A stretch of 64,000 nt of DNA from Chitinophagales bacterium (GTDB lineage: Bacteria; Bacteroidota; Bacteroidia; Chitinophagales; Chitinophagaceae): positions 62,001 through 126,000 of the forward strand of contig JAIXKI010000031.1 of NCBI GenBank assembly GCA_026936105.1. Direction: 5' to 3'. Shown one piece after another: positions 40,456 to 62,228 of the stretch. A program made the position numbers and the translations under genes. Under the pieces are notes generated by a model. That model was not told where the DNA came from, did not search any database, and saw nothing but the letters and a program-made list of their open reading frames with translations. Numbering within the stretch: the stretch's first letter is position 1; each line of letters begins with the position of its first letter.

Positions 40456-42948
40456 TCAGTAAGCAAGTAATCTCAGCGCATTGAACACCACTATTATGGT
40501 AGATCCTTCATGCCCGATAACGGCAGGGCCGATATGAGCAATGCCTAAAATAGTGAGCGGGATCAATATCACAACCATTCCAAGACTGATAATTAGATTC
40601 TGTTTTATGATCCTGTTAGCTTTCCTGCTTAATCCGATCGCAAACGGAAGATTGCTCAGATGATCAGACATCAATGCAATGTCCGCAGTTTCCAGCGCCA
40701 CATCGCTGCCTGCTGCTCCCATGGCAATTCCCACTGTGCTCCTGGACATTGCAGGAGCATCATTCACACCATCGCCGATCATCGCCACTTTCTTTTCAAC
40801 TGACCTGAGCTTTTCGATCGCTTCCACTTTTTGTTCCGGCAGCAGGTTTCCCCATGCTTCCGTAAGTCCGATCTCTTTTGCAATGGCATCCGCCACTTTC
40901 TGATCATCGCCCGTCAGCATGATCATCTTGCGGATCCCCATTTCACTGAGCCTGGCCAGCGATGCTTTAGCATCTTTCCTTGAAACATCCATCAGGGTGA
41001 TGATGCCGATGACCGAGTTCTCTTTTCCAACGATCATGGTTGTTTTTCCCTGCGCCTCAAGCTGTTCCACTTTTGTTTTTATATCTCCCCGAAAATTGAA
41101 TCCGTTTTCTTGGAACAGTTCTTTATTGCCTATATGGATCGTGCTATTATTATAAACAGCTTTTATTCCTCTTCCCTGTATGGATCTGATACCGGATGCT
41201 GCTGCAATCTCTTTTTTCAATTTTTCCATGCCACCTTTTACTATGGCTGCAGCCAAAGGATGCTGGCTTAATTTTTCTACAGCTACCACGATCTCCAGCA
41301 ATTCTTCTTCCGTTATTCCGTTTAACGGATACACTCCGGTAAGTTCAGGTTTCCCTTCGGTAAGAGTTCCTGTCTTGTCAAATGCAATTGCAGTAAGCGA
41401 TCCCAGTTCTTCCAGTGGTTTACCGCCTTTGATCAGCACACCTCCTCTTGCCGCTCTGGCCACACCGCTCAATACGGCGCTGGGTGTGGCAATTGCCAAA
41501 GCACAGGGGCTGGCAGCCACCAAGACGGCCATCGCCCTGTAAAAACTCACACTGAACGGTTCGTTGGTCACCAGAAAGGCAAACAATAAGACGACTACCA
41601 GGATCAGAACACCGGGCACATAATACTTTTCCAGTTTATCCGTGAAATTCTGGGTGGGAGATTTTTGCGTCTGTGCTTCGTTGACCAGTTTTATCAACCT
41701 TGCTATCGTGCTGTCAGCAGCGATCTTTGTCACTCTGATCTCTAAATTTTCGGCTCCATTCACAGAGCCTGCAAACACTTTGTATTTCGTTTCCATTTTA
41801 TCAGCCGTATTTATATCAAAACCTGTTTCGATCACAGGCTCTTTATCTGCCGGTATGCTCTCGCCTGTTATCGGCGCCTGGTTCACACTGCTTCTTCCTT
41901 TTATTACCACACCATCGGCCGGAATTTTACAATCAGGCTTCACAACAATTGTATCTCCTTTTCTCAATTCTTCGACCGGAACTTCTCTGATGTCATCACC
42001 GGTTTTCAGCATTGCCGTTCCGGGAGTGAGTTCAGCCAGTGCGGCAATAGACTTGCGTGCTTTTTCCATTGCGTAATGTTCAAGTGAATGGCCAAGGCTA
42101 AAAAGGAAAAGCAAAAGAGCGCCTTCCTCCCAATGTCCCAATATTGCTGCACCGACAGCGGCTACCAGCATTAAAAAATCAATTTCAAAATCACCTTTGA
42201 TGACTCCTTCAATGGCTTCCTTAGTTGTATAAAACCCTCCGAAAAAATACGTAACAATATAAAATGCTAATGGAACATACATGGAGATTCCGCTGACCCA
42301 TGATAATCCGAAACCAATAGCCAGCATTATCCCTGAAATGATAGCGAAGATCAATTCTGTTCTCTCCCCAAAAATTCCTCCATGCTGATGCTGATGATCA
42401 TGATCCGCATGAACATGATCATGCTTTTCATGATGGACATGTTCATGCACAGGGTTTTTTTTCAGCTCAGGGGAGATCACCGACAAGCCTGTCTTCTCCA
42501 GGTATTTATAAACTTTTACCGGAGTGGTGGCATGATGATCGAATTCAATACTAATCCACCCTGTAGCTGATACGGAAACCGATAAAATACCTTTCAGGTC
42601 TTTCAATCCCAGTTCAATCATGCGGGCATGACGAACATACCTGATCCCCTTCACTTCGAGTAACAGATGGCCATATCTTTCTGTAATCTCCGCTCCCGAT
42701 CTTTCTGCCAGATTTTCCACCTCATCAATGGAGATCTCATTAGGGTTATAATGAAAACAAAGTTTTGCCTTGGATGATTCTGTTTCGGGAACAATATGTA
42801 CTTTTTCGATCCCTTTCCTCTTTTCAATGGCAGTAATAATGCGTTGCACGCAGGCATCCTTTTCATCAGGAACATCCGGTAATATTATATCCAGGTCAAG
42901 TTTGATCTTCTCCATCCCGAAATTTTTGTCGAAATTATTCTTCTTCAT
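40456..42948 (-). CDS. P1B-4-type heavy-metal-transporting ATPase
   Basis: An 830-residue inner-membrane metal exporter. The N-terminus has two HMA-like folds without CxxC (~12-160) and a His-rich segment (168-189, HEHVHHEKHDHVHADHDH), suited to Zn/Co/Cd/Ni. Catalytic parts are all intact: TGES (361), SPC in the sixth membrane segment (480-482), DKTGTLTEG with phospho-Asp524, HPL, MLTGDD and GDGVNDAP. SPC plus a terminal HEGSTIIVVFNALRLL defines the P1B-4 class. It is the last gene of the czc operon; its ATG at 42948 overlaps the stop of the adaptor gene by 14 bp (ATG 42915 is an alternative). It probably moves cytoplasmic metal to the periplasm for the RND pump. Confidence 0.9.
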   Translation of the reverse strand: MKKNNFDKNFGMEKIKLDLDIILPDVPDEKDACVQRIITAIEKRKGIEKVHIVPETESSKAKLCFHYNPNEISIDEVENLAERSGAEITERYGHLLLEVKGIRYVRHARMIELGLKDLKGILSVSVSATGWISIEFDHHATTPVKVYKYLEKTGLSVISPELKKNPVHEHVHHEKHDHVHADHDHQHQHGGIFGERTELIFAIISGIMLAIGFGLSWVSGISMYVPLAFYIVTYFFGGFYTTKEAIEGVIKGDFEIDFLMLVAAVGAAILGHWEEGALLLFLFSLGHSLEHYAMEKARKSIAALAELTPGTAMLKTGDDIREVPVEELRKGDTIVVKPDCKIPADGVVIKGRSSVNQAPITGESIPADKEPVIETGFDINTADKMETKYKVFAGSVNGAENLEIRVTKIAADSTIARLIKLVNEAQTQKSPTQNFTDKLEKYYVPGVLILVVVLLFAFLVTNEPFSVSFYRAMAVLVAASPCALAIATPSAVLSGVARAARGGVLIKGGKPLEELGSLTAIAFDKTGTLTEGKPELTGVYPLNGITEEELLEIVVAVEKLSQHPLAAAIVKGGMEKLKKEIAAASGIRSIQGRGIKAVYNNSTIHIGNKELFQENGFNFRGDIKTKVEQLEAQGKTTMIVGKENSVIGIITLMDVSRKDAKASLARLSEMGIRKMIMLTGDDQKVADAIAKEIGLTEAWGNLLPEQKVEAIEKLRSVEKKVAMIGDGVNDAPAMSRSTVGIAMGAAGSDVALETADIALMSDHLSNLPFAIGLSRKANRIIKQNLIISLGMVVILIPLTILGIAHIGPAVIGHEGSTIIVVFNALRLLAY

Positions 42949-44104
42949 CCGTATTGATCATTTTGGCGAGTAAAAAATAGGCTCCTTTCACTACCACCCT
43001 GGCATCTTCAGGGAATTTTTCGAGTGATTTAACTTCTGAATAACCCAGATCGGTCGGGCCTTTTATCACTTCTATCCTTTTATAGAAAATCTCATCGCCC
43101 TTTTCGCCCGTATAAATAAAGATGTAATCCTTTCCGAGATTGCTCACGATCGCTTCATCGGGAATGGCATCCGAAAGCGCCGTACCGATACTGATAACAG
43201 CAGTCACATTCATGCCGTCTATCAGTCCTGCCTTATCTCCTTTCACCATGGCATGGGCAACTATGGCTTTGGATTCATCTTCAAACGAAGTGCCGATGGA
43301 ATAGATGGTGGCATCGTATTCTTTTCCCGGGTTGTTGGTCAGTGTAAAATGAATGGTTTGCCCGTCCTTCACTTTCGGCAGGTCCTTTTCATAAATAAAA
43401 AGATCAAGGTGTAACTGCGAATTGTTCACCACTTCGGCAATGGCAGCGCTCGCATCCACAAAAGTTCCGATCTGCGCATTCACTTTACTCACTGTTCCGT
43501 CAATAGGAGAAGTGACCGGCAAAGAAGAAATGATATTGCCCATGCTGATCTTCGCCGGTGAAATTCCCAGAGTTGATAACTGCTTTTCCAATCCCGCTTT
43601 TTCTGCCTGAAGATTCTTCAATTCAGTCTCTGCCTGCTGCAGGTATTTCCTGGCGCCTGCATTTCCTTCCACTAAAGTTTTCTGCCTTTCATATTCAAGT
43701 TCCGCCAGGTTCAACTTGGTATTCACCGATAAATACTGCTGTTGCAATTGCACCAGTTCCGGATTGACGATAACAGCAAGCACCTGCCCCTTCCGTACCA
43801 TGTTACCCGGTTGAATATTCAGACTCCGTATGGTGCCCGGGAATAAAGAAGTGATCGTTGCTTTATTCTGATTCGGAACATTGAGAATACCGTTCACTTT
43901 TACGGTAGTGCTCAGATCCTTTTTTTCAATAGGGCCATATTGCAACCCGATGGTCTTAATCTGTTCTTTATTCAATGATACGGTGGTCAGGTTAGCGACT
44001 GCATTTTGCTCTGAGTCTTCCTTGTTTTCCGGAGTCTTATCATTATTGCAGGAGAACAATAATATCAAACCTAAAAACATCGGGGATACTAATATTTTTT
44101 TCAT
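42935..44104 (-). CDS. czcB: Periplasmic adaptor (membrane fusion) lipoprotein, CzcB/CusB type
   Basis: A 389-residue adaptor linking the inner-membrane RND pump to the outer-membrane channel. Lipobox LLFSC gives lipidated Cys19. The barrel-sandwich halves are visible (FPGTIRSLNIQPGNMVRKGQVLAVI and SLPVTSPIDGTVSKVNAQIGTFV), with a helical hairpin between them (~110-180) and a beta-barrel after (LFIYEKDLPKVKDGQTIHF). It lies seven bases downstream of the pump gene and overlaps the ATPase gene. No extra metal-binding N-terminal domain is present. Confidence 0.9.
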   Translation of the reverse strand: MKKILVSPMFLGLILLFSCNNDKTPENKEDSEQNAVANLTTVSLNKEQIKTIGLQYGPIEKKDLSTTVKVNGILNVPNQNKATITSLFPGTIRSLNIQPGNMVRKGQVLAVIVNPELVQLQQQYLSVNTKLNLAELEYERQKTLVEGNAGARKYLQQAETELKNLQAEKAGLEKQLSTLGISPAKISMGNIISSLPVTSPIDGTVSKVNAQIGTFVDASAAIAEVVNNSQLHLDLFIYEKDLPKVKDGQTIHFTLTNNPGKEYDATIYSIGTSFEDESKAIVAHAMVKGDKAGLIDGMNVTAVISIGTALSDAIPDEAIVSNLGKDYIFIYTGEKGDEIFYKRIEVIKGPTDLGYSEVKSLEKFPEDARVVVKGAYFLLAKMINTDEEE

Positions 44105-44111
44105 GACCTGT

Positions 44112-47100
44112 TTATTGATTGATGAGATAATAATATTGAATGACCGATTGATTATACTGGTTCAGATTATCCAGATAATTTTTTTGGATATCTATTGCCT
44201 GAGTAAGAAACTGGCTCAGTTCCGCAAACCCGATCTCCCCGCTGCTGTACGCAATGGATGCACTTTTGATGATCTGTTCCGCCTGGCGTATGCCGGTGGA
44301 TTCGTAAAATGACAGCATTGTCTGATCCTTATGTATCTCGTTAAGAGCTATTGCCCTCTCGGTATTGATGACCTGAGATTGATATTCCAGTTCTTTCTGC
44401 TGCACCGATACTTCAGCAATGGCAGACCTCACTTTACTCCTGTATGCCGAACCGCCGAACAAGGGAAATGCCGCAGTGACAGAAAACCCTGAAAAGGGGT
44501 CTTTCACTCCATATAATCTTTGTGAAAAGAACCGCCCGGAGAATTCCGGCTTGTTCATGTTTCTCTGAACCAAAATATTGGCGCCGGCAATATTTATGTT
44601 TTGCTGTTGCAGCTTCAGCAAAGGATGAAGCGAATCAGCCTCTTCGGGTAATGAAAGTTTTTCCAGTCTTTTCTCCACGGGAAATAAGATCTCTTTTGTG
44701 TTGAGTAGCTGCATCAACGATTGTTGCCGGATCATCAACTCACTGTTCAACTGATTTTTCATTGCTTCCACTTCTCTCATCCTTGCTTCTGCAGCTATGC
44801 TGTCAAGCCCGGCCACATCACCCGTTCTCACTCTCAATGTAGCCACATCATAAAGCGAACTGTAGATGCTGTCAAGCCTTTCAAAAAGTTTTTGCTTTTC
44901 TTCCAGGTACCAGAGCTGGTAATAGACAGTACGGACATCTCTTTTCAGCGCAGCATCTATCACCCGGGTATTGACTTCATAATATTTTGATTGTTCATCA
45001 AAATAATTTTTCCTTGCCTTGTACAAACCCGGCCAGGCAATATCCTGTGACAAGCCGATCTTTAAGACGCCTTCCCGGTCACCGGGATGTATGTCTTCAT
45101 TTTCCACAAACACTCCCGTCTTCGGAATCTCATAAGCTGTTTTCTTTTCAAGAACAGAACGGTTGTACTGCTGCCTGTTCACCTGGTATTGAAGATTGTT
45201 CTTCAGGGCAGAGTCTATCGCTTCATTTACTGTTATTCTTTTTACTGTCTGTGCTTTTACGGGTGATGATGAAAAAACAAAAAATGAAAGAGTAACGATG
45301 CTTGCTGCCGGAGTGATTTTCACTTTCAGTTTTTTTGAAAACAAAGAATATAAAACCGGCATCACTATCAGGGTGAGAAGAGTGGCGGTGACCAAACCTC
45401 CGATGACCACTATGGCAAGAGGCCTTTGCACTTCAGCTCCAGCTCCCCTTGAGATCACCATGGGCAGAAAGCCGAGAGCCGGTACAGCGCCGGTGATGAT
45501 CACTGAGCGAAAACGGTTTTTTGTTCCTTCTAAGATCCTTTGTGTTATATCTGTCATTCCTTTTTTCTTTAATTGATTGAAATGATCTATCAATACGATC
45601 CCGTTCAGCACTGATACGCCGAACAGGGCAATGAATCCGATGCCGGCTGAAATGCTGAAAGGCATTCCTGCAATCCATAATGCCAGCACACCTCCGATCG
45701 CTGACAGTGGAATAGCAGAAAAAACAAGAAGGCATTGCTGAATATTCCCAAATGCAAAAAACAAAAGAACAAAAATCAATGCCAGCGCTACCGGAACGGC
45801 AATGCTCAGGCGCTGACTTGCCTCTTCCAGGTTTTGAAATTGCCCGCCGTAAGTAAAATAATAACCGGGAGGAAGCTTCACTTTTTGTTCCAGTTTATCC
45901 TGCAATTCCCTGACCACTGTTTTTACATCTCTTTCAGGAACATTGAAGCCCACACTGATCCTTCTCTTTGCATCTTCGCGGGTGATCTGCGAGGGGCCGA
46001 GTTCATAGTTGATATCCGCCAGTTGTTGAAGCGGAACCTGCGTGCCCGAAGCAATAGGAACAAAAAGATCTTTTATATCATCAATATCCCGGCGTTTTTC
46101 TGTTTGCAGCCGGACAACAAGATCGAATCTTCTTTCATTTTCAAAAACCAATCCGGCGCTTTCGCCGGCAAATGCTGCTCTTACGATATGATTCAGATCG
46201 TCTATATTCACACCATAGCGTGCAATTTTATCCCGGTCATATCGAATGGTTATCTGTGGAAGTCCGGAAGTGACTTCCACCCGCGGTGAAACCGTTCCTT
46301 TTATGCTATTGATCACATCATTCACCCGGTGAGCATAAGCCAGCAGGGTATCCATATTCTCACCGAAAATTTTCACGGCCACATCTTGTCGGATGCCGGT
46401 CATCAGTTCATTGAACCGCATCTGAATAGGTTGCTGAAATCCGAAAAAAACCCCGGGAAGCACAGACAATGCATCGGTCATCTTCTGTGCAAGCTCATTC
46501 CGGTCGTGTGCAGAGGTCCATTCCGATTTATTTTTCAGAATGACCATCATGTCACCGGTATTGATCGGCATCGGGTCGGTGGGCACTTCGGCAGAGCCGA
46601 TCTTTCCCACCACTTCTTTCACTTCCGGAAATTTCTCTTTCAACATAGAAGATGCTTTTTCAAACACTTCCACCGTCTGCGAGAGCGAAGACCCCTGAGG
46701 CAAAATGGTTTCCACTGCAAAATCTCCTTCTTCCAGAGTAGGGATGAATTCTCCGCCCAGGTTTCTGAACAGAAGAAAAGATGCCATAAACACTGCCAGT
46801 GAGGCAAGCGTGATCTTCCATTTATTTTTCAATGCAAAATTTAAAACAGGTTTGTATAACCGGTAAAGCCTGTTCATCATCCTGTCGGAGAAATTCTGTT
46901 TATGTTTTGTTTTTCTGCCCAGGAAAAGGGATGACACCATCGGCAGATAGGTGACCGATAAAATGAATGCTCCGAGAATGGCAAAGGAAACTGTCTGCGC
47001 CATGGGTTTGAACATCTTTCCTTCTATTCCCACCAAAACGAGGATAGGAAGATAAACGATCAGGATGATGATCTGCCCGAAAAAAGATGAGTGAACAATC

Positions 47101-48443
47101 TGTTGGGCAGCGCCTGAAACTTCATTGTCCATTTGCTCCCTGTTCAGAATATCAACACCCACATGATGATGCTTGCTCAGGAAAATACGATGGACGATTG
47201 CTTCCACAATGATCACCGCTCCGTCCACTATGATGCCGAAATCAATTGCTCCCAGCGACATAAGATTGCCGCTGACACCGAATTGATTCATCATGATGAC
47301 AGCAAAGAGCATGGACAAGGGTATCACTGATGCCACGATAAAGCCTGCACGAAGATTGCCCAGGAACAAGACCAGGACAAAGACCACAATCAGGAATCCG
47401 AGGGTCAGGTTTTCCGCTACGGTATGAATAGCCCTGTTCACTAAATGAGTGCGGTCAAGAAAAGCTTCAATCTCTACTCCTTCAGGCAATGATTTCTGGA
47501 TCTGTGCCACTCTTTCTTTCACAGCTTTTACTACCTGAGCGCTGTTCGATCCTTTCAACATCATCACAATTCCACCCACCACTTCTCCCTGTCCATCTTT
47601 CGTCATACTGCCATAGCGGATGGCGCTTCCCAACTGAGGCGTGGCAATATCCCTTATCAAAACCGGAATACCATTAGAATTGGTCTTGACCACTATCTTT
47701 CCGATATCATCCAATGTGTTCACCAATCCCAGGGCACGGATGAAATAAACATTCGGCTTCTTCTCGATATAGGCTCCGCCTGTGTTCTCATTGTTTTTTT
47801 CCAATGCAGTAAAAACTTCCGGAATGGTTACGTTCATTGATTTCAGCCGCTCAGGATCAAGAGCCACTTCATATTGTTTCAGCAATCCTCCGAAACTGTT
47901 CACTTCGGCCACACCGGGAGTGCCCAGCAATTGTCTTCCCACTATCCAATCCTGAAGAGTCCTCAACTCCATTGGAGAAAATTTATCTTCAAATCCGGCT
48001 TTGGGTTTTATGATATATTGATAGATCTCGCCGAGTCCCGTACTTACCGGGCCAAGCTCCGGCTCACCGGCGCCTTGCGGAATTTCTGTTTCAGCTTCTT
48101 TCAGCCTTTCACTTACCAACTGTCTTGCAAAGTAGGTGTTGACGTCTTCCTTAAACACGATCGTAATCACGCTTAACCCGAATCTTGATATGGAGCGGAT
48201 CTCCACCAGGTCCGGCAATGTTGCCATTGCTCTTTCAATGGGATAGGTAATGAACTTCTCTACGTCCTGAGTCGCCAGTGTTCCGGAAAGTGTCAATACC
48301 TGCACCTGGTTGTTGGTGATATCAGGCACAGCATCTATAGGAAGTTTTTTCAAAGAAAAAATTCCGGTCACGATCAAGGCCAGGGTCAATAACCCGATGA
48401 TCAGTTTATTCCTGATACTGAATTGTATAATGCTGCTCAACAT
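44112..48443 (-). CDS. CzcA/CusA-family heavy-metal RND pump fused to a TolC-like outer-membrane factor
   Basis: 1443 residues. Residues 1-~1036 are a complete HME-RND pump: twelve membrane segments, signature DFGIIVDGAVIIVE (401-414) of the metal group, porter and docking domains. Residues ~1066-1443 are a TolC/CzcC-type outer-membrane factor (VNEAIDSALKNN..., TAAFPLFGGSAYRSK, long helices with GEIGFAELSQFLTQAIDIQ). The join (1037-1065) reads as a Sec signal: KKLKVK, then a hydrophobic core, then VKAQ. Such pump-channel fusions occur in other Bacteroidota. The channel must reach the outer membrane, so cleavage at the join is likely (inference). Metal identity is not determined. Confidence 0.9.
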   Translation of the reverse strand: MLSSIIQFSIRNKLIIGLLTLALIVTGIFSLKKLPIDAVPDITNNQVQVLTLSGTLATQDVEKFITYPIERAMATLPDLVEIRSISRFGLSVITIVFKEDVNTYFARQLVSERLKEAETEIPQGAGEPELGPVSTGLGEIYQYIIKPKAGFEDKFSPMELRTLQDWIVGRQLLGTPGVAEVNSFGGLLKQYEVALDPERLKSMNVTIPEVFTALEKNNENTGGAYIEKKPNVYFIRALGLVNTLDDIGKIVVKTNSNGIPVLIRDIATPQLGSAIRYGSMTKDGQGEVVGGIVMMLKGSNSAQVVKAVKERVAQIQKSLPEGVEIEAFLDRTHLVNRAIHTVAENLTLGFLIVVFVLVLFLGNLRAGFIVASVIPLSMLFAVIMMNQFGVSGNLMSLGAIDFGIIVDGAVIIVEAIVHRIFLSKHHHVGVDILNREQMDNEVSGAAQQIVHSSFFGQIIILIVYLPILVLVGIEGKMFKPMAQTVSFAILGAFILSVTYLPMVSSLFLGRKTKHKQNFSDRMMNRLYRLYKPVLNFALKNKWKITLASLAVFMASFLLFRNLGGEFIPTLEEGDFAVETILPQGSSLSQTVEVFEKASSMLKEKFPEVKEVVGKIGSAEVPTDPMPINTGDMMVILKNKSEWTSAHDRNELAQKMTDALSVLPGVFFGFQQPIQMRFNELMTGIRQDVAVKIFGENMDTLLAYAHRVNDVINSIKGTVSPRVEVTSGLPQITIRYDRDKIARYGVNIDDLNHIVRAAFAGESAGLVFENERRFDLVVRLQTEKRRDIDDIKDLFVPIASGTQVPLQQLADINYELGPSQITREDAKRRISVGFNVPERDVKTVVRELQDKLEQKVKLPPGYYFTYGGQFQNLEEASQRLSIAVPVALALIFVLLFFAFGNIQQCLLVFSAIPLSAIGGVLALWIAGMPFSISAGIGFIALFGVSVLNGIVLIDHFNQLKKKGMTDITQRILEGTKNRFRSVIITGAVPALGFLPMVISRGAGAEVQRPLAIVVIGGLVTATLLTLIVMPVLYSLFSKKLKVKITPAASIVTLSFFVFSSSPVKAQTVKRITVNEAIDSALKNNLQYQVNRQQYNRSVLEKKTAYEIPKTGVFVENEDIHPGDREGVLKIGLSQDIAWPGLYKARKNYFDEQSKYYEVNTRVIDAALKRDVRTVYYQLWYLEEKQKLFERLDSIYSSLYDVATLRVRTGDVAGLDSIAAEARMREVEAMKNQLNSELMIRQQSLMQLLNTKEILFPVEKRLEKLSLPEEADSLHPLLKLQQQNINIAGANILVQRNMNKPEFSGRFFSQRLYGVKDPFSGFSVTAAFPLFGGSAYRSKVRSAIAEVSVQQKELEYQSQVINTERAIALNEIHKDQTMLSFYESTGIRQAEQIIKSASIAYSSGEIGFAELSQFLTQAIDIQKNYLDNLNQYNQSVIQYYYLINQ

Positions 48444-51509: not shown

Positions 51510-53084
51510 TTAATGAAGCCCTTCCATATTCATTTGTTTATTCCGGCTGCCTTTGGACAATAATATAAATGGAACACAAACCAGGAATAGCAAACCGATA
51601 AAGAGAAATACATCCATATAGGTCAGCACTGCCGCCTGCCTGAAAACAGAATAATCCAATGCTTTATAAGCGCTTTTCAATGCCATATCAGGAGTCATTC
51701 CTTTTGCCATAAATCCCTGTCGAAGCGCTGCTATTTTATTCTGAACAACCGGGTCGGTAATATCCAGTTTGCTTACCAGGTCATAACGGTGAAGCATGGT
51801 CTTTCTTGCCATAAAAGTGGTAATGACTGCAATACCGAATGAGCCTCCCAGCTGGCGCATCATTCCGGTGAAAGAGGCTCCCTCGCCGATCTCCTGGCCG
51901 TTCAAAGTGCTTAATGCCAGAGTAGTGATCGGAACAAACAACATTCCCATGGCAAATCCTCTGAGAATAAGCAACCAGAAAAACGCTTCTTCACTTGTAT
52001 CAGGTGTCAGGATCTTATAGCCCCATACCGAATAAAAGAAAAATAAAAGCATTCCGAAAGCAACAAGATATTGCTGCTTCACTCCTCTTTGTATCAGCTT
52101 TCCTATAACCGGCATCATGAATGCAGTTGTCAATGCAGAAGGAACCAGGAGCAATCCCGCCTGTGTAGCCGTCCATCCTAACGATGATTGTGTGTACAAC
52201 GGAATGATAAATGTGGACCCATACAATCCAAATCCAAGAATGAAAGAAAGAATAGTGCCCACTCTCAGGTTTCCATTCTTCAATACCCGAAGATTTACCA
52301 CAGGTTTTCTAAAAACAATTTCTCTCCATAGAAAGAAGAAAAAGCCAAGACAACTGATGATGGTGAATGCAACGATGACACTATCATTGAACCAGTCGTC
52401 ATCCTGACCCTTTTCCAGTACATATTGTAAAGAACCCACAAAAACGGCAAGTAAAGCAATTCCAAGCCAGTCTATATCTTCTTTCTGGCTTTTCTCCGCA
52501 TACTTCGGACTTTTTACGTATTGTAAGGTGAGCAGGATAGCAATGATGCCCAGCGGAATGTTGATATAAAAAATATAGGGCCAGGAATAGTTATCGGTAA
52601 TGTATCCTCCCAACGGCGGGCCCAATGTTGGGCCAACCACCACTCCCATTCCATAGATGGCCTGGGCCATGCTTCTTTTTTCGTAAGGATAACTTTCTGT
52701 AAGGATGGTCTGCGAAGTGACCAGCAAAGCGCCACCGCCTAATCCCTGCATGAAGCGAAAGATCACCAGCTCCCACAAGCCCGTGGAATTGCCGCATAAA
52801 AAAGAAAAGATCGTGAATATGGCAATGGAAGCAGCAAAATAATTCCGCCTGCCAAATTGCTGAGACAGCCAGCTCGTCATGGGTACAACGATCACGTTTC
52901 CGATAGCATAAGCAGTGATCACCCATCCGATCTCGGTTGTGGTAGCGCCCAGGTTGCCTTTCATATCCGTCAACGCAACATTTACAATGGTGGTGTCCAC
53001 TATTTCCAGCACGGTACAGATAATGGCTAAAATAGTGATGACAACCCTGCGGTGTCCATACTCAACTAATGAATCGTATTGCAT
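51510..53084 (-). CDS. MFS drug:proton antiporter, DHA2 (EmrB/QacA) family
   Basis: A 524-residue, 14-segment inner-membrane exporter. Motifs: EIVDTTIVNVALTDMKGNLG (the first-helix Asp motif of the family), WLSQQFGRRNYF (loop motif A), GVVVGPTLGPPLGGYITDNYSWPYIFYINIPLG (antiporter motif C). It pairs with the adaptor encoded 25 bases upstream and the TolC-like channel to form a tripartite drug pump. Substrates cannot be predicted. It converges on the ABC ATPase gene with seven bases between stops. Confidence 0.92.
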   Translation of the reverse strand: MQYDSLVEYGHRRVVITILAIICTVLEIVDTTIVNVALTDMKGNLGATTTEIGWVITAYAIGNVIVVPMTSWLSQQFGRRNYFAASIAIFTIFSFLCGNSTGLWELVIFRFMQGLGGGALLVTSQTILTESYPYEKRSMAQAIYGMGVVVGPTLGPPLGGYITDNYSWPYIFYINIPLGIIAILLTLQYVKSPKYAEKSQKEDIDWLGIALLAVFVGSLQYVLEKGQDDDWFNDSVIVAFTIISCLGFFFFLWREIVFRKPVVNLRVLKNGNLRVGTILSFILGFGLYGSTFIIPLYTQSSLGWTATQAGLLLVPSALTTAFMMPVIGKLIQRGVKQQYLVAFGMLLFFFYSVWGYKILTPDTSEEAFFWLLILRGFAMGMLFVPITTLALSTLNGQEIGEGASFTGMMRQLGGSFGIAVITTFMARKTMLHRYDLVSKLDITDPVVQNKIAALRQGFMAKGMTPDMALKSAYKALDYSVFRQAAVLTYMDVFLFIGLLFLVCVPFILLSKGSRNKQMNMEGLH

Positions 53085-53109
53085 ATACGGTCAGCGAAAA
53101 CTCTTCAGT

Positions 53110-54213
53110 TTACTCTAGGCTTACATCAACAGTTACATTCAGTCCCGGCCTCAGTTTTTTGATAAGAGAGTCGGAAGCATCAGTGAATTCAATCTTCACC
53201 GGTAAGCGCTGAACCACTTTTACAAAATTTCCGGATGCATTATCCGGGGGTAACAAAGCAAAAGTGGATCCGGTGGCAGGAGAAAAAGAACTGACCACTG
53301 CCTTGAATTCATGCCGGGGATAGGCATCAGCCGTGACAATGACGCTCTGCCCTTCTCTCATTTTATTCAGTTGTGTTTCCTTAAAATTGGCAACCACCCA
53401 CACATCCTGGCTGTGTATCATGCTGAACAATGCCTGACCCGCCTGTACAAACTGTCCGGGTTGCACTCCCACTTTTGAAAGATGCCCATCTTCATCAGCA
53501 GTGATAATAGTGTATGAAAGACTCAGCTTAGCTGCATCCACATCCACTTCCCTTTGCCTGATGGCAGCCTGTGCCACATTCACCTGTTCTGCTGTAGCAT
53601 TGCTCTGCACCGTGACAGCGTTGGTCTGATGCGATGCCTGATTTTTTTGTCCCTGTAAAACCGATAGTTGTTTTTCTGCCGTTTCCTTTGCAGCCCATGC
53701 CTGTTCATATTGCTGCTGGGTAATCGAATGATCTTTAATCAGGTTGGCATAGCGTTCATAATCCTGATTGGCACGCCATGCAGTGATCTTTGCTGCCGCT
53801 ATCTGTGAGTCAATGGTAACAATGGAAGCAGCCGATGTGGCAATGTTCGCTTTCGATGCAGATGCCATGGCAATGGCATTCTGCAAATTAGCTTTGGCTA
53901 TTCCCAATGCAGCTTCTGCTTCTTCCAGTTTTAATTTATAATCACGGTCATCCAGTATGATCAGTGTATCACCTTTTTTCACCCACTGGTTATCTTTCAC
54001 CCGCACTTCTTTTATATACCCCGACACATGAGGGATCACCAGCAGGATGTCGGCGCTCACCTGTGCGTCATCCGTTTCTTCGTGATGAAGGCTGTACCGG
54101 TATTTTGAAATACCGAACCAGCTTCCTCCCACCAGCAGGAGGATAAGCAGTATTATGAAGAACGGGTTTCTTTTCTTTTTCTTTGGTGTCACTTCTTCAT
54201 TTTTTGTTTCCAT
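53110..54213 (-). CDS. HlyD/EmrA-type membrane fusion protein
   Basis: A 367-residue adaptor anchored by one N-terminal membrane segment (FFIILLILLLVGGSWFGISKY) after a basic tail (TPKKKKRN). A biotinyl-lipoyl half-motif is visible (SGYIKEVRVKDNQWVKKGDTLIILDD), then a long helical hairpin (~75-215, Ala/Gln-rich) and the second half (ITADEDGHLSKVGVQPGQFVQAGQALFSMI), with a beta-barrel containing DVWVVANFKETQLNKMREGQ. It is typical of EmrA partners of DHA2 exporters. It is the third gene of the tetR-tolC-emrA-emrB order. Confidence 0.92.
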   Translation of the reverse strand: METKNEEVTPKKKKRNPFFIILLILLLVGGSWFGISKYRYSLHHEETDDAQVSADILLVIPHVSGYIKEVRVKDNQWVKKGDTLIILDDRDYKLKLEEAEAALGIAKANLQNAIAMASASKANIATSAASIVTIDSQIAAAKITAWRANQDYERYANLIKDHSITQQQYEQAWAAKETAEKQLSVLQGQKNQASHQTNAVTVQSNATAEQVNVAQAAIRQREVDVDAAKLSLSYTIITADEDGHLSKVGVQPGQFVQAGQALFSMIHSQDVWVVANFKETQLNKMREGQSVIVTADAYPRHEFKAVVSSFSPATGSTFALLPPDNASGNFVKVVQRLPVKIEFTDASDSLIKKLRPGLNVTVDVSLE

Positions 54214-54241
54214 AATCGTTCTGATTAAGTCTTTTTAAAGT

Positions 54242-55591
54242 TTACTTGTTTAATTCTTCACTCAGGGTACCTGTTATCTGCAACAGTTTATGATAAGCCA
54301 CGAAGGCATCGGCTTTTGCCAGGGTATAGCTGAGCATTGCCTGAAACTGTGCCACATCCGCTTCAAGCAAATCGGTGGTAGTGGCAAGGCTGTTGTCAAA
54401 CTTGTTCCTGACGATCTTGAAATTTTCATCGGCCTGCTCCACTGCCTTTGCATATACGTCTATCTTTTTGCGGCTGCTGAGAAATGTCAGGTAACTTTTA
54501 TTCACCTGCAGTTGCAGGTTATCCGACATCAGGCTTTTTGTCAACTCAGCTTCTTTTGCTTTTGCTTCTGCCTGCTCAATTTTGGATCTGGTCTTCCAGA
54601 GAGACCCGAGACTGTAGGATAAACCCACACCTACATTAGTGGCATTCGTGATGGTCACCAGTTTCGGAATGTCGGCTGCGATATAACCCCCGGTCAATGA
54701 AACGGCCGGATACATCTGTCCTTTGGTGATCCTGATCGCATCGTCTGCTGCTTTCTTTCTGTAATCTACTGCCATCAGGTCCTTACGGTTTGTGAAAGCT
54801 GTTTGCACATAATCCTGTAAAGCCAATCCCTTTTCTTTCTTTTCAATTACCGTTGTGTCTGTCTCCAATTGTGTATCGGTGGACAACCCCAGCATCAGGT
54901 CCATATTGAGATTGGCCATCTGAAGATTATTTTGTGCATCCAGCAGATTCAGTTCAACATTTGAAGTTTGTAACTGGGCTTTTAAAAGATCATTCCTTGC
55001 CAGCAAACCATTTTTTTCCAGGTTGCTGAAATCTTTTTCACGTTGTTGTGATTGTTTGAGGTTGTCCTGAATGAGTTTTACTGAGGACATCGCTTTGAAC
55101 AAATTGGCATAAGCTTCAATGGTATTCTGGATCACACCTTCTTTATCATTTGCAGCATCCAGCAGCGCAGCTTGTTCAAGATACCGGGATGATTCGATCC
55201 CATATTTGATCCTTCCCCCGGTAAAAACGGGAAATGAAACATTGGCAATACCATAGATAGCCTGCGATACAGAAGGCGGTTTTGAATTATTACCGCCAGG
55301 TCCTCCGCCTCCGGGATTACCACTGCCTGTTTTCAGATCCACTTTGGAGCCGAACAATCTCATATAGGCTCCACTCACACTGGCATCGGGCAATCTCTTT
55401 TCTTCCGCTTCTTTCAGCGCTGCCGTTGCTTCTTTGATCTTCTCAGAATTGATCTGCAGTTGCTTGCTGTTCTTAAGGCTCAGGTCAATAGCTTCCTGCA
55501 AAGTCAATTGCTTTTTTTCCTGAGCTTCCATTCTCAGCCCGGACAACAACAGAACAAACAATAATAGAACCCAGGTCTTTTTATTCTTCAT
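54242..55591 (-). CDS. TolC-family outer-membrane efflux channel
   Basis: A 449-residue outer-membrane factor: signal peptide MKNKKTWVLLLFVLLLSGLRMEAQ, then duplicated helical and strand modules (LTLQEAIDLSLKNSKQLQINSEKIKEA and VGVGLSYSLGSLWKTRSKIEQAEAKAKEAELT). A Gly/Pro-rich loop (GSGNPGGGGPGGNN) is in the first half. Its ATG overlaps the tetR stop by 11 bp, so the regulator and channel are translationally linked. It forms the exit duct for the EmrAB-like pair downstream. Confidence 0.92.
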   Translation of the reverse strand: MKNKKTWVLLLFVLLLSGLRMEAQEKKQLTLQEAIDLSLKNSKQLQINSEKIKEATAALKEAEEKRLPDASVSGAYMRLFGSKVDLKTGSGNPGGGGPGGNNSKPPSVSQAIYGIANVSFPVFTGGRIKYGIESSRYLEQAALLDAANDKEGVIQNTIEAYANLFKAMSSVKLIQDNLKQSQQREKDFSNLEKNGLLARNDLLKAQLQTSNVELNLLDAQNNLQMANLNMDLMLGLSTDTQLETDTTVIEKKEKGLALQDYVQTAFTNRKDLMAVDYRKKAADDAIRITKGQMYPAVSLTGGYIAADIPKLVTITNATNVGVGLSYSLGSLWKTRSKIEQAEAKAKEAELTKSLMSDNLQLQVNKSYLTFLSSRKKIDVYAKAVEQADENFKIVRNKFDNSLATTTDLLEADVAQFQAMLSYTLAKADAFVAYHKLLQITGTLSEELNK

Positions 55592-56213
55592 AAGTCAATA
55601 CGGCTTTAAAAAGTGATTTTAGATGATAGGTAAGTTTCTTCCGCAGGTGCGCCTGAAATTTTTCATTAGTCATTGACTGCATGCCATTCAGTTCACGGTA
55701 AAAATGCTGCGTGCTGATCATGTGGCCGGTAGTGCCGATCAGCACTGCCATCATCAGCGGCACATCAATATTTTTTTTAAACTCCCCTTTCTTTTGTCCT
55801 TCTTCAATAAGTTGCCTGATCAGTTCCTGGTTCTTGGTGATCAGCTGTCGGATCTGTTTATGCATAGGGCCATAGTTTTTAGCTATTTGCTCCCGCATCA
55901 TGATCTTATAAAAACTTTGCTGATCCATTATTCTTTCCACATACCTGTCTATCATCTGATCCACTTTTTCCAGCGAGGTCATTATTTTATTCTGGAGCAT
56001 TGTCTCCAGTTGCAACGTGATATTTTCTCCCCGGAATCTGAAAATATTCTCCAACAGTTTTTCCTTGGAACCGAAATAATAAGAGATCATGGCAAGATTG
56101 ACACCGGCTTCATCAGCAATATCCCGTACCGAAGTGCCCGCAAATCCTTTTTCAGCAAAAAGTTTTTCTGCTTTCTCCATGATCGCAACCTGTTTTTCGT
56201 TGTACTCCATCAT
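55581..56213 (-). CDS. TetR/AcrR-family repressor of the efflux operon
   Basis: A 210-residue regulator. The N-terminal helix-turn-helix is clear: EKAEKLFAEKGFAGTSVRDIADEAGVNLAMISYYFGSKEKLLENIF. The C-terminal ligand domain is of the kind found with efflux pumps (RYVERIMDQQSFYKIMMREQ, MMAVLIGTTGHMISTQHFY). ATG 56213 (or 56210) is chosen over TTG 56249, which overlaps the -7 motif. It heads the operon it presumably controls; two palindromic 12-mers cover the promoter, indicating negative autoregulation relieved by a pump substrate (inference). Confidence 0.9.
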   Translation of the reverse strand: MMEYNEKQVAIMEKAEKLFAEKGFAGTSVRDIADEAGVNLAMISYYFGSKEKLLENIFRFRGENITLQLETMLQNKIMTSLEKVDQMIDRYVERIMDQQSFYKIMMREQIAKNYGPMHKQIRQLITKNQELIRQLIEEGQKKGEFKKNIDVPLMMAVLIGTTGHMISTQHFYRELNGMQSMTNEKFQAHLRKKLTYHLKSLFKAVLTYEE

Positions 56214-56236
56214 AAGTTCCTTTGAAAAAGGAGGCG

Positions 56237-56272
56237 CAAATTTAAACAAACGTTTAATTAAAACAAGTGTTT
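56237..56272 (-). promoter_or_regulatory. tetR-operon promoter with two operator-like palindromes
   Basis: Minus-strand promoter: TTG (56266-56264), 19 bases, TAAATTTG (56244-56237), a full match to the -7 consensus. Two related 12-mers lie over it: AAACAAACGTTT (56244-56255) and AAACAAGTGTTT (56261-56272), 17 bp apart. The second is a perfect inverted repeat (AAACA-N2-TGTTT); the first sits in TTAAAC-N4-GTTTAA (56242-56257). They are good candidates for binding sites of the adjacent TetR protein. Confidence 0.65.
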
Positions 56273-57589: not shown

Positions 57590-58015
57590 TTATTTATATT
57601 TTATGTACAACCTGCGTTTATCTGCATTAACTGCTTCAAGATAAACATGAAGGGTGTCTTCAGGCAAAAGGGATAAGGCTTTTTCCGGCCATTCCACCAG
57701 GCAAATATGTCCGCTGTACAAACAATCTTCAATTCCTGCATCAAAAGCTTCTGTTTCGCTGCGAAGGCGGTAAAGGTCTATGTGATAGATCTTCAACTCT
57801 TTTCCTTTTTCTTCAAAGCTGTATTCATTGATCAGCGAAAAAGTGGGGCTGCTTACCACATCCCTGACCTTTTTTACATCGCAAAGTGCATGGATGAATG
57901 TTGTCTTGCCCGATCCCATCGGGCCATGAAATGCGACCACTTTTCTATCTTTCACCTCCTTCCAGAAAGAAATTGCCGTTCCAAGAATTTCATTTAAAGA
58001 AAATATCCATTCCAT
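57590..58015 (-). CDS. tsaE: tRNA threonylcarbamoyladenosine synthesis ATPase TsaE
   Basis: A 141-residue P-loop ATPase of the complex that makes t6A37 in tRNAs reading ANN codons. Walker A is GPMGSGKTTFIHALC, then SPTFSLINEY, IYHIDLYRL, and CLVEWPEKA (Walker-B-like end), all diagnostic. Length and order match the family. It is followed by ald after ~25 bases, so both are probably on one transcript. It is divergent from the degenerate P-type ATPase gene, with ~100 bp between the starts. Confidence 0.95.
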   Translation of the reverse strand: MEWIFSLNEILGTAISFWKEVKDRKVVAFHGPMGSGKTTFIHALCDVKKVRDVVSSPTFSLINEYSFEEKGKELKIYHIDLYRLRSETEAFDAGIEDCLYSGHICLVEWPEKALSLLPEDTLHVYLEAVNADKRRLYIKYK

Positions 58016-58093: not shown

Positions 58094-58101
58094 TAACTTT
58101 G
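58094..58101 (+). promoter_or_regulatory. -7 element of the P-type ATPase homologue
   Basis: TAACTTTG is a full match to TAnnTTTG, 17 bases before the ATG at 58119. It predicts a leader of about 10 bases. No good TTG lies at the usual distance. Its presence argues that the gene is still expressed. Confidence 0.5.
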
Positions 58102-58118: not shown

Positions 58119-60224
58119 ATGGAAAAAGTTCAATGGAAAGTGGAGGGAATGACCTGCTCCCTTTGTGCCGCTGCCATCACAAAATACCTGGGCAGGAAGG
58201 GAGTGAAGAATGTGATGACAGATTTCATCAGCGGCGAACTTTCTTTTGATAAAGATGAAAATTTCAATGAGGAAAAGATCATCAAAGGGATCCGTGACCT
58301 TGGTTACCGAGTTATAAAAACAGGTGCTGAATTATTGCAAGAAAATTATTTCAGGAAAATTTATTTACAAAGATTTTTCTTCTGCCTGCCATTTGCTATT
58401 GCCCTTTTTCTTCCTGCTTCACTTTCCCAATGGTTGCAGGATCCATGGATCAGGCTGGCCCTTTGCCTTCCTGTATATTTCACCGGGATGTATCAATGGG
58501 GAAAAAGCACATGGAACAGTATCCGTATCGGATCACCCGGAAGATTTACTTTGATCGTTTCTGCGGCGTCCATAGCTTTCTTTTATAGCCTGATCCTGGC
58601 AATTAAAGGTTATGAAGAGAATTATCTTCTGTATAATGTCACAGCCATTATCATCACGCTGACTTTTCCGGGAGTTTATCTGGAACAACGCTTCATTCAG
58701 GCTGCACAACTCTCAACCAAAAATTTAATAAGGGCTAAGAATGTAACTGCCGATCTCATCGGCTTTGATGAAGAACACAAGGAACATGTTTTCCCTATAG
58801 AAAACTCACATCTGAAAACAGGTGACCTGATCCGAGTCACCGGCGGGAATCATGTTCCTGCAGATTGCAGGATCCTTTGGGGAGAAGCAGACGTTGATGA
58901 ATCTTTGATCAACGGTGAGAAAATAGCGGTACAAAAAAAAGCAAAAGACCTTTTATATGCAGGAAGCAAACTGATCAATGGTTCGGTAAAAGCACAGGTG
59001 ACCGCTCCCATCAACGAATCTTCAATTCATAACATGATCCGAATGATCAGGCGGTCACAAAGTGAATATTCCAATAGAAAGAGAAAGATGGATAAATCCG
59101 GGATCATCTTCATATTATTGGTATTGTTGATCGCAATTCTCACTTTTATTTTTACACGGATTAGCACCGGAGACATATCGCTTGCAATAACACGGATGAT
59201 CACAGTTATGGCGATCTCAGCTCCCTGTATTTTCGGATTATCCATCCCTGCAGCCATCGCCGCCTGTATCAATAAAGGCCTTAAAGAAGGAATCCTTTTC
59301 CGGGACATTTCCGTGTTGAACATAGCCGGAAAAATCAGGCAGGCGGTATTTGGCAAAACAGGCACACTGACCACAGGCGTTTTCCGGATCATGGATTACC
59401 GGGTTGAAAACTGCACCGATGAAGAATTTAAGAGGACTATATTTTCCCTGGAAAAATATTCCGGCCATCCGATAGCAAGATCCATAGTGAAGGAATGGAA
59501 AACCAAAGATGAGATCAGATGGAAGAATGTGGAAGAGATCAAAGGAATGGGAATAAAAGCTGAAGACAAACAGGGAAATATTTACACCGCAGGCTCGTAT
59601 AAACTGGCAGAGTCTTCTGTCAATGATGACTCCTTCAGTGTTTTCATTACAAAAAATGAAACATTGCTCGGCTGGATTGATATAAGGGATGAATTGCGCA
59701 GCGAATCAGCATCTGTGATCTCTTATCTTCATTCCAAAGGAATACAAACCGGCTTGCTCACCGGCGATGTTCATCAGAAAAGCGGGCAGCTTGCAAAAGA
59801 ACTTAAGATAGATTCTGTACATGCGGGGCAAACACCCGGACAGAAGATCAGTTTCATATCGGATCTTACTGCCCGTGCACCGGTAATGATGATCGCCGAT
59901 GGCATCCATGATGCAGCCGTACTGGAAAAAGCGACTGCAGGTGTTTCAGTCACCGATGCTTCCCTTATAGAAGGACAAACTGCTCAGGTTCTGTTGCTCA
60001 ATAATGGGATCAAAAAACTTCCGGCTTTGTTCGATCTGAGCCAACTGGCCAATAATGTTATCGGTCAGAATATTTTTTGGGCATTTTTCTATAATCTGTC
60101 AGCCATTATTCTTGCAGCGTCAGGATTGCTGACACCAATTCAAAGCATAGTGGCCGCAACGTTCAGCAACCTGGTCCCGCTACTCAATTCACATAGAATA
60201 TTGTCTAAAAAATTAAAAAGCTGA
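58119..60224 (+). CDS. Catalytically degenerate P1B-type ATPase homologue (putative pseudoenzyme)
   Basis: A 701-residue membrane protein with the layout of a copper-type P1B ATPase: HMA domain with intact MTCSLC (Cys13, Cys16), about eight membrane segments, actuator, P- and N-domains. Every catalytic signature is altered: TGE is NGE (265-267), CPC is APC (368-370), DKTGT is GKTGT (Gly412 replaces the phosphorylated Asp; codon GGC at 59352), GDGxNDAP is ADGIHDAA (593-600). Retained are GHP (449-451), LTGD (547-550) and the hydrophobic segments, with no stop or frameshift. It cannot run a normal phosphorylation cycle. It may bind or sense metal, act as a partner or decoy, or be early in decay. 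The intact P1B-4 pump at 40456 is a different subclass. Confidence 0.85.
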   Translation: MEKVQWKVEGMTCSLCAAAITKYLGRKGVKNVMTDFISGELSFDKDENFNEEKIIKGIRDLGYRVIKTGAELLQENYFRKIYLQRFFFCLPFAIALFLPASLSQWLQDPWIRLALCLPVYFTGMYQWGKSTWNSIRIGSPGRFTLIVSAASIAFFYSLILAIKGYEENYLLYNVTAIIITLTFPGVYLEQRFIQAAQLSTKNLIRAKNVTADLIGFDEEHKEHVFPIENSHLKTGDLIRVTGGNHVPADCRILWGEADVDESLINGEKIAVQKKAKDLLYAGSKLINGSVKAQVTAPINESSIHNMIRMIRRSQSEYSNRKRKMDKSGIIFILLVLLIAILTFIFTRISTGDISLAITRMITVMAISAPCIFGLSIPAAIAACINKGLKEGILFRDISVLNIAGKIRQAVFGKTGTLTTGVFRIMDYRVENCTDEEFKRTIFSLEKYSGHPIARSIVKEWKTKDEIRWKNVEEIKGMGIKAEDKQGNIYTAGSYKLAESSVNDDSFSVFITKNETLLGWIDIRDELRSESASVISYLHSKGIQTGLLTGDVHQKSGQLAKELKIDSVHAGQTPGQKISFISDLTARAPVMMIADGIHDAAVLEKATAGVSVTDASLIEGQTAQVLLLNNGIKKLPALFDLSQLANNVIGQNIFWAFFYNLSAIILAASGLLTPIQSIVAATFSNLVPLLNSHRILSKKLKS

Positions 60225-60266: not shown

Positions 60267-62228
60267 TTGACCGACATTCATCAAATACTGAGACATTACT
60301 GGGGATTCAATTCTTTCCGGCCTTTGCAAAAGGAAGTCATTGAATCCGTAATGCAGGGAAACGACACATTGACCCTGATGCCCACAGGCGGAGGCAAATC
60401 TCTTTGCTACCAGGTCCCTGCACTGGCAAAAGAAGGAATGTGTCTTGTTGTATCACCTCTTATTGCATTAATGAAAGACCAGGTGGAGAACATCCGAAAA
60501 AAAGGGATCACGGCATTCGCCATTTTTTCAGGGATGAAAAGAAAAGAGATCGTGAATGCTTTAAAGGTATCTGCAAACAGCAACTGTAAATTCCTTTATG
60601 TATCACCCGAACGGTTGGAAACAGCATTGTTCAGGGAATATCTCCCCGGAATGGATATTAACCTTATTGCTGTTGATGAAGCGCATTGCATCTCACAATG
60701 GGGATATGATTTCCGCCCTTCCTATTTAAAAATTGCAACCATAAGAGAAGAGTTGCCGGACATTCCCATCCTGGCTTTAACTGCATCTGCAACTCCTGAA
60801 GTGCAGAAAGATATTTGCGAGAAACTTCAATTCAGAAACGTTTCAAAGATTCCGGCTGCAACGCCTGCAATACCCGGCAGGAAGGATTCGCCTTCACCTA
60901 AAATATTCCGTCAATCTTTTGAGCGGCCCAATCTTTTATACAGTGCATTCAGAGTGGATTCCAAGATCAACAAGATCATTGAGATCCTCACTAAAGTAGC
61001 AGGCAGTTCCATCATTTATTGTAAAAGCAGGAGGCGAACCAGAGAGATCAGCGAGCTGCTGCAATTGCAGAATATCTCTTCTGACTTCTATCATGCAGGA
61101 TTGATACAGGATGAACGGAACCGGAAGCAGGAAGACTGGATCAATAATAAAACCAGGGTGATCGTTTGCACCAATGCATTCGGAATGGGCATTGACAAAC
61201 CTGATGTACGGACCGTGATCCATGCCGATGCGCCTGATTGCCTGGAAAACTATTACCAGGAAGCAGGCCGGGCCGGAAGAGACGGGAGAAAAGCTTTTGC
61301 CGTTCTTTTATATGATGAAAACGATCTTCAGGAACTGGAAGCGCTGACGGAACAACGGTATCCCTCTTTTGAGGATATAAAAAATGTGTACCAGGCTGTT
61401 TCCAATTATTTGCAGATCCCGGCGGGAAGCGGCGAAGGCGAGTCTTATAATTTTGACATTGCCGACTTCATCAAAAAATTCAAACTGAACAGCCACACTG
61501 TTCTTTATTCATTGAAAGCGCTGGAACAGGATGGCTGGCTGGCATTCAATGAACAGGTCTTTATTCCTTCCACTGTTCAATTCATCGCAGGCAAGGCGGA
61601 GCTGAATGAATTTGAAAAAATACATTCTGAACTTGATATTGCGATCAAATCACTTTTGAGAGCTTATGAAGGAATCTTTGATCAGGAAGTTCCCATCTCG
61701 GAATGGGTGCTGACCGGGCTTATGAAAAAAAACACGGAAGAGGTGAAAGAGCAATTAAAACAACTTCACCGCTATGGCATTATCTTATACCGCCCCCAAA
61801 AAGACAGCCCGCAGTTATTCCTTCTACGTAATCGTATTAAAACCGAAGACCTCACCATCAATATGTCCGCATACAACCTGAGAAAAGAAAATTTCAGGTT
61901 GCGTTGTAAAGAAATGATCCGTTATATAAACGAGAAAGCGGACTGCCGAAGTCAAATGATCGCTTCCTATTTCGGTGACCATTCCCTGAACCGCTGTGGT
62001 GTTTGCGATAATTGCCTGCGGTTAAGGTCGGTCCAGCTAAGCAAAGAAGAATTTGAAATGATCAATCATCAAATCATCAGCACGATCAGCCCCGGGCCTT
62101 TGCACACCAAAGATCTTTTACTGCGGCTTAATGGAATCAAAAAAGAAAAAGCCTGGAAAGTGATCGAATTCCTCCAGGCTGAAAGTAAAATAAAGATGGA
62201 TAAGGATGGATTTGTGAGTGTTCAATGA
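60267..62228 (+). CDS. recQ: RecQ-family ATP-dependent DNA helicase
   Basis: A 653-residue 3'-5' helicase of recombination and repair. Motifs: FRPLQKEVIESVMQGNDTL (motif 0), LMPTGGGKSLCYQVPAL (I), VSPLIALMKDQV (Ia), AVDEAHCISQWGYDFRPSY (II, DEAH), LTASAT (III), FYHAGL, TNAFGMGIDKPDVR and YQEAGRAGRDGR (VI). A RecQ zinc site lies at ~550-595 (CKEMIRY...CGVCDNC), then a winged helix. No HRDC domain is present. An insertion rich in Pro/Ser (IPAATPAIPGRKDSPSPK) precedes the second RecA lobe. No ATG fits: the frame starts at TTG 60267 just after TAAGG, only seven bases beyond an AACCTTTG motif (60253-60260), so the message may be leaderless. Confidence 0.93.
   Translation: MTDIHQILRHYWGFNSFRPLQKEVIESVMQGNDTLTLMPTGGGKSLCYQVPALAKEGMCLVVSPLIALMKDQVENIRKKGITAFAIFSGMKRKEIVNALKVSANSNCKFLYVSPERLETALFREYLPGMDINLIAVDEAHCISQWGYDFRPSYLKIATIREELPDIPILALTASATPEVQKDICEKLQFRNVSKIPAATPAIPGRKDSPSPKIFRQSFERPNLLYSAFRVDSKINKIIEILTKVAGSSIIYCKSRRRTREISELLQLQNISSDFYHAGLIQDERNRKQEDWINNKTRVIVCTNAFGMGIDKPDVRTVIHADAPDCLENYYQEAGRAGRDGRKAFAVLLYDENDLQELEALTEQRYPSFEDIKNVYQAVSNYLQIPAGSGEGESYNFDIADFIKKFKLNSHTVLYSLKALEQDGWLAFNEQVFIPSTVQFIAGKAELNEFEKIHSELDIAIKSLLRAYEGIFDQEVPISEWVLTGLMKKNTEEVKEQLKQLHRYGIILYRPQKDSPQLFLLRNRIKTEDLTINMSAYNLRKENFRLRCKEMIRYINEKADCRSQMIASYFGDHSLNRCGVCDNCLRLRSVQLSKEEFEMINHQIISTISPGPLHTKDLLLRLNGIKKEKAWKVIEFLQAESKIKMDKDGFVSVQ

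Follow-up and report, generated by a model that had tools for sequence, protein, structure and literature searches.

The gene located at positions 58119-60224 (plus strand) of the 64,000-nucleotide stretch of DNA analysed here (hereafter the window) encodes a P1B-type ATPase homologue that lacks the catalytic Asp. This window gene is a P1B-type ATPase by descent and fold, on the basis of full-length homology, an HMA domain, domain order and synteny. It is interpreted, with a probability slightly above one half (about 0.55), as a lineage-specific pseudo-pump, i.e. a membrane-anchored protein that would carry out neither phosphorylation nor transport, and that would be kept mainly for its ATP-binding domain.

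The frame comprises 701 codons without stop or frameshift; its integrity, put forward in the initial annotation, was confirmed by reading the sequence. HMA, E1-E2_ATPase and HAD hydrolase domains were detected in the product with Pfam. Using NCBIfam models, the product scored 384.5 bits for the heavy-metal P-type ATPase family (TIGR01525, cut-off 346) and 320.6 bits for the Cu subfamily (TIGR01511), which is below the curated cut-off of 397, whereas the intact orthologues of two congeners pass both cut-offs (522 and 506 bits with TIGR01511). The HMA metal-binding domain (58119-58316, plus strand) retains its CxxC (C13 and C16) and is 58% identical to that of these congeners, compared with 88% between the congeners themselves. 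A Bacteroidota-type -7 promoter element (TAACTTTG, 58094-58101, plus strand) was found 17 bases 5' of the ATG, as previously reported, and similar elements (TAAATTTG and TACATTTG) are present upstream of the orthologue in both gene-carrying congeners; no clear -33 element was seen upstream of the gene in the window sequence.

According to the initial annotation, all catalytic signatures of the protein had been replaced, each substitution abolishing a step of the cycle. The named residues are changed and their codons had been read correctly: TGE is NGE (T265N, codon AAC at 58911; motif 58911-58919), CPC is APC (C368A, GCT at 59220; 59220-59228, also seen in the orthologue alignment), the DKTGT phosphorylation site is GKTGT (D412G, GGC at 59352; 59352-59366) and GDGIND is ADGIHD (G593A, GCC at 59895, and N597H, CAT at 59907; 59895-59912), all on the plus strand. 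Two further positions, near-invariant among orthologues, are changed in the last helix (M680A and D684N, 60156-60170, plus strand). The signatures are nevertheless only partly lost, as K413-T416, G266-E267 (including the catalytic Glu), P369-C370, G549-D550, K576, D594 and D598 (both Asp of GDGIND) are still present, together with the YN pair and, as had been noted, MTCSLC, the HP motif and LTGD. By textbook knowledge, D412G, which removes the phosphorylation site, and C368A, in the metal path, are the sole changes that would be individually fatal. The phosphorylatable Asp of DKTGT that characterises an active P-type ATPase is thus absent, as are the CPC-type membrane metal motif (APC, with M680A and D684N) and the complete TGE and GDGxND (NGE, ADGIHD) of an active P1B transporter. 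Replacement of the residue equivalent to D412 in ATP7B (D1027N) abolishes the phosphoenzyme (PMC4179477). Judged from its sequence, a product without D412 cannot form a phosphoenzyme or run the P-type cycle, in agreement with the earlier statement that it cannot pump. From what is known of the family, the loss of C368 and of the last-helix residues has very probably interrupted the path of the metal.

The changes are not confined to the motifs, contrary to what had been proposed. Among the 92 sites that are strictly invariant over 78 aligned orthologues, 27 are altered in the window gene, and losses affected motif residues (7 of 25) and other near-invariant sites outside residues 433-544 (46 of 131) alike (Fisher p = 0.65). 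Since motif sites were lost at the same rate as other invariant sites, inactivation is placed early in the fast phase; the same comparison suggests that catalytic constraint had been gone for about as long as the remaining acceleration lasted.

Orthology was examined by comparison with three congeners (G001, G002 and G003). The window gene lies between two conserved syntenic neighbours, a TsaE-type gene (57590-58015, minus strand) and a RecQ-type helicase gene (60267-62228, plus strand), and an alanine-dehydrogenase-type gene (AlaDH) also adjoins the locus; among 32 homologous family loci, the order AlaDH-TsaE-ATPase-RecQ was recovered at nearly all of those whose contig extends far enough. 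The ATPase gene is carried by G001 and G003, with intact motifs; the two orthologues are 82% identical to each other and 51% identical to the window copy, the corresponding range for eight neighbour genes across the same genomes being 65-93%. A tree of the regions outside the N domain places the window gene together with its congeners (support 0.96). Synteny and this grouping identify it as a vertically inherited, strongly accelerated orthologue rather than an import, and a horizontal origin or paralogy was ruled out on the same grounds. A CcoI role for a cbb3 oxidase was also considered and rejected, a strong ccoN being found in G001 alone, where it adjoins a different P1B ATPase.

In G002, the ATPase gene has been cleanly deleted, leaving 171 bases between TsaE and RecQ. 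Most neighbour genes place G002 nearer to the window genome (MFS 92%, HlyD 90%), of which it is, from these sequences, the apparent closest relative (sister species). The deletion indicates that the function is dispensable nearby and, considered with an intact CopA-like ATPase (823 aa, CPC and GDGIND) on contig C9 of the window genome, that the clade evidently tolerates its loss. Both observations speak for a pseudogene in the making, in which constraint on a redundant pump would have been lifted and the frame would so far have survived fortuitously or owing to harm caused by truncated membrane proteins.

None of the motif-checked members of the 78 aligned orthologues lacks the catalytic Asp. 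In about 390 genomes of the family, a search for Asp replacements restricted to GBN and AAY codon patterns (Gly, Ala, Val and Asn) before KTGTLT returned the window gene and one chance match in a 63-codon frame, and no other [G/A/V/N]KTGTLT P-type ATPase. The expectation that the same replacements would be conserved across species was therefore not borne out: the pseudo-pump state is observed in one genome, the same replacements occur in no second species checked, the other checked orthologues are intact and the G002 gene is deleted. No genome-specific partner gene was found adjoining the window gene.

Acceleration of the window gene is regional. Outside residues 425-545, its branch length is 1.26, the congener branches measuring 0.09 and 0.12 (it is thus 11-14 times as long), whereas inside this segment it is 0.31, as against 0.19 and 0.26. 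The preserved block was delimited by a two-breakpoint scan as residues 433-544 (59415-59750, plus strand; edges 433-440 and 537-544), and contains most of the ATP-binding N domain and adjoining P-domain elements. Novel residues number 0 of 112 in the block versus 23% elsewhere, with a gain of 26 log-likelihood units. Identity between the window gene and its congeners is 64-67% in the N domain (73% between congeners), but 36-37% in the region of the fifth and sixth membrane helices (93% between congeners), the transmembrane helices being the fastest-evolving portion of the gene. The ATP contacts of P1B N domains are a Glu, the His of HP, a GxG and a third Gly (PMC5089723); the window gene keeps all of them, with E445, H450, P451, G476, G478 and G486 retained in the block. 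In the same source, the N domains of the plant proteins HMA6 and HMA8 failed to bind ATP when isolated.

Such a block could also result from gene conversion, if a decaying gene had received residues 433-544 from the intact copy of a related species. The edges of the block do not coincide exactly with those of the N domain, and it extends into the P domain of the structural model, as would be compatible with a mosaic. However, codon identity in residues 425-545 (0.51-0.61) is at the ordinary congeneric level and is not raised, the genome contains no intact orthologue as donor, and the missing stops elsewhere in the gene would be left unexplained; a mosaic origin is considered improbable.

The initial annotation had named intact motifs in the closest orthologues, together with relaxed selection on this copy (dN/dS near 1), as grounds for abandoning a functional pseudoenzyme. 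The closest orthologues are indeed intact, but saturation of synonymous sites in every neighbourhood gene (codon identity given the same residue of about 0.5) leaves a dN/dS near 1 neither demonstrated nor excluded. Branch codon models were tried, and their omega estimates were discarded, fitted branches being mostly 1-20 neutral substitutions per codon. Neutral decay was simulated (300 runs), each run being continued until the observed share of near-invariant sites had been lost. Up to residue 544, about 10.5 stops were expected and none of the 300 runs was stop-free; after residue 544, 2.3 stops were expected and 10% of the runs were stop-free, which makes this second stretch mildly surprising (P ~0.1). 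No stop was observed in either part, for a total of about 13 expected under unconstrained decay, and 100 neutral substitutions yield zero stops in merely 1% of cases. The earlier argument that random decay should add stops is upheld. Replacements at formerly near-invariant sites are also mild (9% radical, versus a neutral expectation of 35 +/- 7%; mean BLOSUM62 of -0.09 versus -0.70, P = 0.007), and the membrane helices have gained no charge (10 charged residues, versus 15.7-18.7 simulated). In the N-domain block, neutral decay was expected to remove a further 35% of sites (minimum 17%), and no excess over the congeners was observed.

Considered together, the tests on stops, on replacement mildness and on the N domain make unconstrained decay unlikely. 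Outside the block, excess change depends only weakly on how conserved a site formerly was (0.33 at invariant sites), as in relaxed decay, and this near independence is a further point in favour of a pseudogene. An open frame with no frameshift where about 13 stops were expected, conservative replacements at invariant sites and an untouched N-domain block argue against it, and a pseudogene in the making is accordingly regarded as rather unlikely. All three tests would be accommodated if constraint had been relaxed in the transport parts while selection acted on the N domain and kept the frame open as far as that domain. The proposal of a functional pseudoenzyme thus gains from the conservative replacements and the normal constraint on the N domain, but it had pointed to the metal-binding domain, and the best-preserved part is the ATP-binding N domain.

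The AlphaFold model of the window protein (pLDDT 79, pTM 0.67) retains the membrane helices and the fold, its best fold matches being ATP7B and CopA; as the alignment used as input was one of intact homologues, the model confirms the family and is no proof that the window copy folds. The P1B-1/CopA group (TIGR01525, TIGR01511; PDB 7r0g, 3j09, 7xuk) and the window gene have in common the order HMA-TM-A-TM-P-N-P-TM, the predicted fold, the HMA CxxC and the ATP-site residues. Unlike this group, the window gene lacks the phosphorylatable Asp, the first Cys of CPC and two near-invariant positions of the last helix, and, unlike its congeners, it falls below the Cu subfamily cut-off. Retention of the membrane helices, of the second Cys of CPC and of the YN pair, along with the fold matches, would be compatible with an altered, non-phosphorylating transport, either as a passive channel or as a carrier driven by another protein. 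C368, M680 and D684 are nonetheless gone and the transmembrane helices change fastest, so that altered transport is considered highly improbable.

A comparable loss affects the P4-ATPase domain of Plasmodium guanylate cyclase beta, which is likewise retained with most signature residues gone (PMC6592433). That domain is a eukaryotic P4 fused to a cyclase, whereas the window gene is a free-standing bacterial P1B with a retained ATP site. PacL, a non-pumping membrane metal-binder that aids a P1B ATPase in mycobacterial metal-efflux platforms (PMC9374683), is an analogue in function only: it has a single transmembrane domain and a short motif that binds metal, with no suggestion of descent from an ATPase, unlike the window gene.

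The pseudo-pump would have arisen from an ancestral, vertically inherited Cu-type P1B ATPase by loss of phosphorylation and metal translocation, a full-length membrane protein still being encoded. Selection would now act chiefly on the N domain, which would be exposed at the membrane and bind ATP or a partner, and the HMA CxxC may still bind metal. The product could then be a docking or regulatory subunit that responds to a nucleotide or a metal without hydrolysing ATP. In a more specific and tentative form, it may be a membrane-bound ATP-sensing protein, its N domain under normal selection and its transport parts released, with a regulatory or scaffolding role in which it signals the state of ATP or metal to a partner.

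Several features of the neighbourhood were recorded in addition. Copper pumps have MSxSS in the last helix. In the TsaE-RecQ ATPase group, the corresponding residues (680-684 in window numbering) are MGFSD or MGLSD, as in the family orthologue L037, CPC and YN being kept; with MGFSD or MGLSD instead of MSxSS, the metal of this group may not be copper. RecQ is 80% identical between the window and G002, and 85% between G002 and G001; it may be slightly accelerated on the window branch too. A metal-efflux cluster (40456-48443, minus strand) encodes a further P1B-type ATPase of 830 aa, which has an SPC motif and an N-terminal region rich in histidine and in which DKTGT and GDGVND are intact. Also encoded there are a membrane-fusion protein and a CusA/CzcA-type RND pump (1443 aa) to which a C-terminal TolC-like outer-membrane domain is apparently fused. 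Consecutive TetR-type regulator, TolC-type, HlyD-type and MFS efflux genes (51510-56249, minus strand) are conserved in all three congeners.

Stand-alone P-type ATPase pseudoenzymes are apparently little described, the searchable literature having returned only the degenerate malaria-cyclase domain mentioned above. Were the window gene the product of mere decay, it would be a clean example of a misleading open frame. Because the locus is constant, the gene being intact in two congeners and deleted in the apparent sister species, this bacterial case could allow the loss of transport with a retained nucleotide-binding domain to be dated and tested.
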